Of a stretch of DNA of 33,040 nt, positions 30,799 to 32,998 are shown one piece after another. The DNA is taken from NCBI GenBank assembly GCA_030532575.1, contig JAUNKV010000002.1, forward strand, positions 1 to 33,040. Direction: 5' to 3'. Origin of the DNA: Propionibacteriaceae bacterium (lineage in GTDB: Bacteria; Actinomycetota; Actinomycetes; Propionibacteriales; Propionibacteriaceae). The notes beneath the pieces are model-generated. The model did not search any database. It had not been told where the DNA came from and worked only from the letters and a program-made list of their open reading frames with translations. How positions within the stretch are numbered: position 1 is the first letter of the stretch; each line of letters starts with the position of its first letter. A program made the position numbers and the translations under genes.

Positions 30799-30835
30799 AC
30801 GACCGGCTCGTTCAGGACCGGTCCTTCGTTGAGGA
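30799..30835 (+). repeat. Isolated degenerate CRISPR repeat upstream of the array
   Basis: The last 21 bases of this segment match the last 21 of the array repeat except the final base (GGACCGGTCCTTCGTTGAGG then A). Its first arm GACCGGCTC differs from the array arm GACCGGTCC by a two-base swap, and its loop is 5 nt rather than 4. It lies 314 bases before the first true repeat. The rest of 30718-30798 shows only the small inverted repeat after lysS. Confidence 0.7.
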
Positions 30836-30903
30836 ATGGTCTTTGACGTCAGAAGCTTGGCTTCGCCTCACCCGGGCCTTGGCCCCTTCGTTGTCCCCAA
30901 TAC

Positions 30904-30930
30904 CTCGGCCCAGCGTTTCCTTGGGCCGAG
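30904..30930. terminator. Hairpin in the leader region
   Basis: CTCGGCCCA pairs perfectly with TGGGCCGAG across a 9-nt loop. It may end lysS or leader transcription on either strand, or be a structural part of the leader. No T tract follows. Confidence 0.4.
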
Positions 30931-31135
30931 AACGCAACCTGACAACTTCACAGAGCTTCATCGTTTGACACCGCGAGAGGGGTACGGAACACGCGACACG
31001 CCTTGACCGCTCGCGCACCAAAACCCCTTGTCACAGCCACACGAGTGGCGATCTTCCTGTCAGACCCCACCACGACACACCCACCGGGCAAGCGCCTCTC
31101 GCAGCACCCCTCCAAACCCCCAAGCCAGAAGGCGA

Positions 31136-31141
31136 TAAAAT
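31136..31141 (+). promoter_or_regulatory. Putative -10 box for pre-crRNA
   Basis: TAAAAT matches five of six bases of TATAAT and ends 8 bases before the first repeat. No -35 is seen at the usual distance. Confidence 0.4.
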
Positions 31142-31149
31142 CAGGAGCC

Positions 31150-32998
31150 GTGACCGGTCCTCCGGGACCGGTCCTTCGTTGAGGGGTTGAAGGAGTTGCT
31201 TGCGAAGCCCGAGCCCCCCGCACTGTGACCGGTCCTCCGGGACCGGTCCTTCGTTGAGGGCCGCTCAGCAGGACGAGAAACAGCACGGACAGCCAGTATG
31301 ACCGGTCCTCCGGGACCGGTCCTTCGTTGAGGGGGGCATCCCTGCCGCATGGACCTTGGGGCTGGACGCAATATGACCGGTCCTCCGGGACCGGTCCTTC
31401 GTTGAGGGGGACCGTCTGCCCCACCGATTCCACATTCTTCATGTGACCGGTCCTCCGGGACCGGTCCTTCGTTGAGGGCTCCGTCAGACAGTGAAAAACG
31501 TCCACTGCCGCGACCGTGACCGGTCCTCCGGGACCGGTCCTTCGTTGAGGGTGCACCACCGCCTCACGCATGTTCGGCGTCCCCGTGGTGTGACCGGTCC
31601 TCCGGGACCGGTCCTTCGTTGAGGGACGGAACTCCAGAAGGCGACCGACCGCGCCACCCAGGGTGACCGGTCCTCCGGGACCGGTCCTTCGTTGAGGGTG
31701 CTTGATCGCAACATAGGCGCTGACCGTCTTCCCGTGACCGGTCCTCCGGGACCGGTCCTTCGTTGAGGGAGACTTTTGGCGGCAGCGGAAACATGCGCCG
31801 AGACAGTGACCGGTCCTCCGGGACCGGTCCTTCGTTGAGGGCCGCCGTGTTGGCCGGGGTCGGGGTGCTCGTCGGCTGTGACCGGTCCTCCGGGACCGGT
31901 CCTTCGTTGAGGGCAACTCGAAATCGGCTCAAATCCATGCCGGGGTTGTGTGACCGGTCCTCCGGGACCGGTCCTTCGTTGAGGGGACGACCAGGTGGAC
32001 GCGCTGACTCAGGCCATCATCGTGACCGGTCCTCCGGGACCGGTCCTTCGTTGAGGGGTGCAGGATGCTCAGGTGAGCGGGCAGGCCTTCGAGTGACCGG
32101 TCCTCCGGGACCGGTCCTTCGTTGAGGGATGCGTGAATGGGCGCCCGGCATCATCCACGCCGCCGTGGCCGGTCCTCCGGGGCCGGTCCTTCGTTGAGGG
32201 GATGAAAACGGTCGTCCCCGCCGGGCGGGCCACGAGTGGCCGGTCCTCCGGGGCCGGTCCTTCGTTGAGGGGGGCACTCAACGCCTTGAGAATGGGGCCG
32301 AGCGTATGTGGCCGGTCCTCCGGGGCCGGTCCTTCGTTGAGGGGCCTTCGCTCTCAAGGCCGCCGACCTGGCGGCCGGGGGGTGGCCGGTCCTCCGGGGC
32401 CGGTCCTTCGTTGAGGGCTGGCGCAGTCGGGCATCGACCACGGCACGGTCTGGCTGTGGCCGGTCCTCCGGGGCCGGTCCTTCGTTGAGGGGGGTCCAGC
32501 AGTGGCCAGCCCTGGACCGATGCCGAAGGTGGCCGGTCCTCCGGGGCCGGTCCTTCGTTGAGGGCACGTGGGCGGCTGCGGGTGGTTGATACCAGAATGT
32601 GGCCGGTCCTCCGGGGCCGGTCCTTCGTTGAGGGCAGGCCCTCGGAAAGCAGATGGGCCTCACTGCCGAAGCTGACCGGCCCTCCGGGACCGGTCCTTCG
32701 TTGAGGACCCACCAGCTTCATCGCCACGGCACGATCAAGCGGGTGACCGGTCCTTCGGGACCGATCCTTCGTTGAGGGCTCCGGGGCGGCGATGGGCTTG
32801 GTGGCAGGGATAGCGGTGGCCGGTCCTCCGGGACCGGTCCTTCGTTGAGGGACGACGACCACCGCGCTCGGGACGATCACTGCGGCCCTGGTGACCGGTC
32901 CTCCGGGACCGGTCCTTCGTTGAGGGGCGCGCCGGGATATCGAACCGCCGCTCGGCGCGGTCGTGGGCGACGCGTCCGGTCCCGTCCGTGCTTTATGG
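31150..32998 (+). CRISPR. CRISPR array: 25 clear 36-bp repeats plus a decayed terminal repeat
   Basis: Repeats start at 31150, 31225, 31298, 31373, 31443, 31516, 31590, 31663, 31734, 31806, 31878, 31950, 32022, 32093, 32165, 32236, 32308, 32382, 32456, 32529, 32599, 32672, 32743, 32816 and 32891. Spacers are 34-39 bp and all different. Each repeat is GT, arm GACCGGTCC, loop TCCG, arm GGACCGGTC, then CTTCGTTGAGGG. Repeats 15-21 (32165-32634) have A-to-G at positions 4 and 18; repeat 24 (32816) has only the position 4 change. Repeats 22 and 23 carry other errors. Position 32963-32998, exactly one spacer (36 bp) after repeat 25, holds a strongly decayed copy (about 21 of 36 bases). Decay at the right end and uniformity at the left put the leader on the left. 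Repeat length and stem suggest a type I (I-C or I-G) or type III system; no cas gene is in the window. Bases 32999-33040 show nothing else. Confidence 0.97.

Follow-up and report, generated by a model that had tools for sequence, protein, structure and literature searches.

How does a CRISPR array come to carry, in its interior, a block of seven repeats that deviate from the main repeat at the same two positions, and how does it then return to its former repeat type? The question is raised by array 1 of this Propionibacteriaceae genome (assembly of 3.2 Mb in 75 contigs), which we analysed in a window comprising bases 1-33040 of the 155-kb contig C40. The main (A-type) repeat of the array is GTGACCGGTCCTCCGGGACCGGTCCTTCGTTGAGGG. 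In repeats 1-14 both positions 4 and 18 are A, and repeats 3 and 4 also have A at position 1. The repeats of the block, which carry G at both sites (G/G type), start at 32165, 32236, 32308, 32382, 32456, 32529 and 32599; they are identical to one another and differ from the A type at positions 4 and 18 only. Reading all 25 repeats in the window (Table 1) bore out what a preliminary description of this DNA had reported, namely seven consecutive repeats with these two changes, at the same coordinates and with the same pairings, flanked on both sides by A-type repeats and accompanied by one repeat, number 24, with the position 4 change alone. The window ends at a scaffold gap of 10 Ns inside the array (C40:33041-33050, corresponding to L009:2542-2551), and more repeats follow beyond it, such that the old end of array 1 is incomplete in the window. 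Past the gap lie repeats at 33078 (4G, 13T, 32A, 36C), at 33151 (4A, 13C, strongly decayed) and at 33278 (very degenerate). Read from old to new, site 4 is A, G, (gap), A, G, A, A, followed by seven times G and fourteen times A, while a repeat with 18G but without 4G does not occur among the repeats of array 1. The run of identical repeats is not in itself due to chance, but copying of the adjacent repeat yields such runs; the point that needs explanation is that two sites switch together, both on entering and on leaving the block.

Table 1. Features of the locus; positions given without a prefix are window positions.
Feature	Position	Strand	Remarks
Isolated fossil repeat upstream of leader	30800..30835	+	core 3' 20 nt perfect, 5' half decayed
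Array 1 leader	30917..31149	+	93.5% identity over 232 nt to array 2 leader, C40:41719-41949
cas2 3' end remnant	30921..30968	+	in frame (LGRERNLTTSQSFIV, stop); heads array 1 leader
Array 1, window part	31150..32926	+	25 repeats, 36 nt each
A-type repeats (4A, 18A), leader side	31150..32128	+	n=14
G/G-type block (A4G + A18G)	32165..32634	+	n=7, repeats 15-21
Repeat 22	32672..32707	+	4A, 18A; 1C, 9C, 36A; 9C is the array-2 allele
Repeat 23	32743..32778	+	4A, 18A; 13T, 22A; 13T is the array-2 allele
Repeat 24	32816..32851	+	A4G without other change
Repeat 25	32891..32926	+	exact A type, old side of block
Cas7g/Csb1	L009:3019-4230		Pfam PF09617 112.6 bits, cut-off 25; NCBIfam 33.3, under cut-off 38
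Csb2 (Cas5-Cas6 fusion)	L009:4232-5797		TIGR02165 248.6 bits, cut-off 45
Cas3g	L009:5781-8393		TIGR02621 692.5 bits, cut-off 400
Cas8g/Csb3	L009:8390-9388		PADLOC Cas8g E 4e-84; NCBIfam 20.9, under cut-off 65; Pfam none
Cas4/Cas1 fusion	L009:9385-10971		PADLOC Cas1g E 2e-215; Pfam Cas4 and Cas1 over cut-off; NCBIfam fusion model 462.6, under its cut-off 560
Cas2	before array 2		PF09827 56.6 bits, cut-off 23.8

The direction of the array can be read from its flanks. The stretch to its left matches the leader of a second array, array 2, and the aligned leader stretches (30917-31148 and the array 2 equivalent) both stop at the first repeat. Given this match on the left and the decayed repeats on the right, the leader lies on the left and crRNAs have the sense of the plus strand. 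The cas2 remnant consists of the last 15 codons and the stop, and at the protein level it matches exactly the C-terminus of the Cas2 encoded before array 2. Because this remnant stands in frame at the head of the leader, the array 1 leader is a duplicated module of cas2 end plus leader. The fossil repeat further upstream has 10 mismatches to the main repeat (26/36 identical; in shuffles of the downstream trailer, the 95% maximum was 21) and may be the mark of a lost earlier array. A tandem duplication from a motif common to the flanks at 30836 and C40:33378 was also considered and could not be established, the likeness being insignificant if no gap is allowed (ungapped identity of 16/30, which is equalled at 1040 of 1,292,038 positions of the fetched loci). 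A scan of L009:1-3000 against Rfam gave no match.

Downstream of array 1, within 10 kb past the window end, lie a cas operon and array 2, in the order Cas7g, Csb2, Cas3g, Cas8g, Cas4/1, Cas2, array 2 and then type I-E genes. With these proteins, the locus is a type I-G CRISPR-Cas system. The same genome also harbors a 101-repeat array near type I-E genes (L101:1764-7732) and, on contig C54, a 14-repeat array with its own Cas1 (L071:10654-11667).

What do the two changes do to the repeat RNA? The repeat has a stem of 9 bp (3-11/16-24), and positions 4 and 18 lie within this stem and outside the handle. In the G/G repeat, pair 4:23 changes from A:U to G:U and pair 9:18 from U:A to U:G, and the predicted energy goes from -18.9 kcal/mol in the A type via -18.3 for each single change to -17.7. 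The earlier proposal that the stem survives as two A:U pairs become G:U is thus upheld. The two sites are not partners of each other, so that the block displays no compensatory covariation inside one pair. They are, however, the equivalent site of an internal direct repeat, GACCGGTCCT, which occupies positions 3-12 and 17-26 and which is left perfect by the G/G combination, as is the case for 30 of the 4590 double changes that touch it. For type I-G, the available part of PMC9638904 describes repeats of 36 nt that are processed by Csb2, which cuts 4 nt 3' of the hairpin and so leaves an 8-nt handle, and the array 1 repeat fits the geometry given there (the stem, CTTC and GTTGAGGG). Since the A and the G/G type both keep the predicted hairpin and the 8-nt handle, processing of both by Csb2 should be expected.

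A clue to the meaning of the two changes comes from array 2, which starts at 41950 and has 12 identical repeats, GTGGCCAGCCCTTCGGGGCTGGCACTTCGTTGAGGC. They differ from the A type at 9 of the 36 positions and have G at 4 and 18. Pair 4:23 accordingly is A:U in array 1, G:U in the block and G:C in array 2, and pair 9:18 is U:A, U:G and C:G, respectively. Judged from these sequences, the G/G type is a natural wobble intermediate between the two repeat families of the locus. The type change within array 2 is abrupt, from a decayed, A-like terminal repeat at 42861 (26/36 identity to the A type, 22/36 to the array-2 type) to the 12 identical repeats. One further element of array 2, an 80-nt 'spacer' containing GTGGCCAGGG (L009:11557-11636; C40:42056-42135), possibly represents two spacers around a repeat that has lost its hairpin.

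The relationship of the two arrays is also visible in the variant alleles of array 1. When the 25 window repeats of array 1 and the repeat at 33078 are taken together, five of their ten variant alleles (4G, 9C, 13T, 18G and 36C) equal the array-2 allele, which has a hypergeometric p of 2.4e-4 over all substitutions and of 0.03 if only transitions are counted (4/8). Among the 36 double changes that consist of stem-keeping transitions, three (4+18, 4+20 and 18+20, by hand count) lead towards the array-2 repeat, such that G/G would match array 2 by luck in approximately 8% of cases if only stem-keeping transitions spread. The related genome G023 has one leader of the kind seen at arrays 1 and 2, with a single fossil repeat, in which pair 4:23 is G:C and position 18 is A, and the lysyl-tRNA synthetase gene that adjoins our locus is also conserved nearby in this relative. 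What remains there, on contig C105 (L047), is the C-terminal part of Cas4/1, cas2, the leader and one repeat, and this looks like a collapsed type I-G locus. Over eight repeat types from our locus and G023, pairs 4:23 and 9:18 both vary on either side by way of G:U, three pairs in all are changed on both sides (equalled by 9/500 shuffles) and 94.4% of cells pair (equalled by 7/500), results which are supportive only, the eight types being hand-chosen and of common ancestry. The number of further pair types among the same eight is not above the shuffle level (165/500 reach it).

If the block goes back to a related array, one may ask whether a donor can be found. The preliminary description had envisaged a second array with the G-type repeat, and this idea holds in part: array 2 exists and has a closely related leader, but its own repeat is a relative of the A type with nine differences from it. 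The G/G repeat was found neither elsewhere in its own genome, as repeat DNA and by the tail motif, nor in 197 other genomes of the family. This family search, which covered 198 genomes including the own one (one genome per species, 3 mismatches allowed), matched, among the places listed, only the arrays of the own genome, which has 38 matches in all, and the fossil repeat of G023. Between arrays 1 and 2 there are no shared or duplicated spacers. The 24 spacers of array 1 matched 16 of 50,697 phage records, all of them by spacer 12 (31986-32021), whose hits are terminase genes of Microbacterium phages (best E 7e-3). The seven block spacers gave no plasmid match at E 0.1 and one phage record at E 1, and repeat scans of IMG/VR gave no match. 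In spacer length, GC content and end bases, there was no usable difference between the block and its neighbours, the groups being small. The spacer target searches do not separate the explanations. As an observation apart, spacer 3 of array 2 (C40:42172-42207) matches in 25/26 nt, and in the same register, the inside of a type I-G spacer of Gordonia hydrophobica (L025:17452-17477, E 1.5e-6), and the own genus and Gordonia seem to have sampled related targets.

It is also pertinent to ask how common such blocks are. We compared array 1 with 74 other arrays (2213 repeats), which came from 48 of 50 loci with a Cas1 match and 20 of 24 loci with a Csb2 match from other genomes, from earlier loci of the genus and from one Gordonia; three of the 74 are the other arrays of the own genome. 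Interior runs of at least three variant repeats with a return to the former type occur in two of these 74, with interior runs of two (L089, L098) left out of the count. In L096, six repeats carry one change, and the return consists of a single end repeat. In the type I-G array L121 (11148-13154), which the script missed and which was found by reading by hand, two linked types alternate, with six repeats of 9A, one of 14A, six of 9A and then fifteen of 14A. An interior run in L068 was rejected as a true switch, as its C3T change persists and is interrupted by private changes only. Seven rows were passed over by the detector: L113, both entries of the window array, and four rows whose repeats numbered fewer than 6. 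We read the window array by hand. A switch-back block like the one in array 1 thus is real and uncommon, but neither unique nor strange.

The best reading of these observations, and one to which we would give an even chance, is that the leader-proximal repeat was exchanged with, or the block imported from, a related array. In the case of an exchange, the leader-proximal repeat would once have been G/G and would have been copied in six or more acquisitions. One recombination event with a related array would later have restored the A type at this position, either because the leader and the first repeat were converted or because a stretch on the leader side was replaced, and the A type would then have been copied in further acquisitions. 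Import of the whole seven-repeat block from another array is equally open. What the sequence shows is the block, the side of the leader, the cas operon, array 2, the near-identity of the two leaders, the cas2 remnant and the shared alleles; that recombination took place, in which direction and from which donor, is what we infer. The duplicated leader module, the upstream fossil repeat and the abrupt type change in array 2 favour recombination on balance. That a different template or recombination lies behind the block had been suggested before, and the suggestion gains support from the related leader of array 2 and from the array-2 alleles at several variable sites of array 1; the contention that the switch back requires a second event is likewise supported. 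The alternation at site 4 agrees with recombination as well but is weak evidence, because single-site alternation near the old end is also found in L046 (T16C at repeats 12, 14 and 15, absent at 13) and L082 (G10A at 8, 10 and 13). A bolder version, in which array 1 keeps in time order the wobble step of a compensatory switch at two hairpin pairs, from A:U/U:A via G:U/U:G to the G:C/C:G now found in array 2, is one that we put forward tentatively and with more doubt than confidence.

The main rival to recombination with a related array is internal (ectopic) acquisition. Here, an interior repeat would have mutated to G/G and six integrations would have taken place at this site, which would make the block younger than its left neighbours. 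The appeal of this scenario is that one mutated repeat accounts for the A type on both flanks with no switch back needed, and the available part of PMC7999890 documents ectopic acquisition for S. thermophilus CRISPR1/CRISPR3, where, according to the portion at hand of a review (PMC8047081), it has been reported without leader mutation as well. However, it would be unusual for a single interior site to take six insertions. Ectopic events are less frequent than polarized ones, and the cited cases are tied to leader mutation or loss, as far as the accessible text of PMC12638026 goes; the array 1 leader closely resembles its array 2 counterpart and has no obvious defect. The end of spacer 14, directly upstream of the block, does share 7/15 nt with the leader end over its last 15 nt, ranking 2 of 24, but this likeness is weak, since at 7 nt spacer 14 shares first place with four other spacers and at 10 nt it does not stand out. 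We therefore judge internal acquisition to be unlikely, though to be taken seriously. A further proposal concerns the origin of the G/G type and can be combined with the recombination reading: A4G may have arisen first and have been copied to position 18 by misalignment of the two copies of the internal direct repeat. Such homogenisation within the repeat would fit the perfect state of this direct repeat in G/G and the presence of A4G without A18G at 32816 and 33078, with 18G alone in no repeat. Yet 4G is also present in array 2 and G023, and so possibly is an old allele rather than a step, and the direct repeat is a by-product of the self-palindromic arms, the type I-G array L113 having the same layout. 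Homogenisation is conceivable on these grounds, with the balance leaning against it.

The preliminary description had viewed the two substitutions as a coordinated change at both arms, driven by selection on the RNA fold or on symmetric recognition by Cas proteins. Both changes do keep the stem, and we asked how stem variants behave across the 54 arrays whose orientation could be read (the window array and 53 of the 74), dropping variants with more than 3 differences. Stem transitions shared by two or more repeats of an array preserve pairing in 10/10 cases, as opposed to 36/62 for those seen once (Fisher p 0.011), and for all stem substitutions the figures are 10/13 and 36/90 (p 0.017), where the rows are not independent, L068 giving three and the window two. 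The contrast between keeping and breaking falls to p 0.07 without the window, L121 and duplicates, and L121 propagates a 9A type that breaks a stem pair (predicted -9.8 versus -14.5 kcal/mol). The bias looks like ordinary tolerance of G:U pairs, for which coordinated selection is needless. Moreover, the two changes of the block affect two different pairs, each change keeps the stem on its own and costs only 0.6 kcal/mol, so that neither calls for the other. Coordination of the two arms thus did not hold up, and selection on the fold or on symmetric recognition is improbable as the driving force. It is less probable still that the block is an assembly artefact, in the form of a collapse or misjoin of two arrays or two strains; the 10-N gap inside the array and a reported contamination of 4.3% of the assembly would speak for it, but different spacers stand between the seven repeats, and a unit of approximately 72 nt would be spanned by ordinary reads. 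The least credible option is mutation only, with both sites of the leader-proximal repeat mutating and afterwards reverting. While this would need no donor, it would require an exact double reversal, which is very improbable, and propagated changes are rare, runs of at least two identical variants being detected by the script in 6/74 arrays (L048, L068, L077, L089, L096 and L098).

How does the block compare to what has been described in other systems? In E. coli and Salmonella, runs of variant repeats have been attributed to copying of the neighbouring repeat when spacers are acquired (PMC2886076, as far as available), and array 1 resembles these arrays in having a run of variant repeats. It differs from the stretches in the accessible part of that paper in that its run is interior, has two linked changes and switches back, although Table S6 of the paper may contain similar cases. 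Set against the same source, the variant of array 1 is also an intermediate toward a second repeat family of the same locus. In S. agalactiae CRISPR1, 98.5% of internal repeats are typical and variants are rare; internal variants thus occur there as well, but they are single-nucleotide variants, and the part of PMC4466440 at hand describes no switch-back block. Ectopic acquisition in S. thermophilus CRISPR3 would, as in the internal acquisition scenario, place newer units inside the array, but this system is of type II-A and no variant-repeat run is described in the available text (PMC7999890). The type I-G system in the accessible part of PMC9638904 shares the repeat geometry, whereas our locus differs in having two arrays with different repeats.

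Some caution is in order when reading an array as a chronicle, as array position is not strictly time and a change of the repeat is not necessarily a single mutation. With this in mind, the locus is of wider interest. Repeats differ among arrays, yet one integrase and one Csb2/Cas6 must still be able to read them, and intermediates rarely survive. Here, a single locus holds the two end states, each in an array of its own behind a near-identical leader, together with a block in the wobble state in one of these arrays. This makes it possible to test in one place in which order the steps came, how much the processing enzyme tolerates and what part exchange between arrays plays. If the wobble reading is true, the block would be a fossil record of a repeat that changed while it stayed readable by one Cas6 and one integrase.
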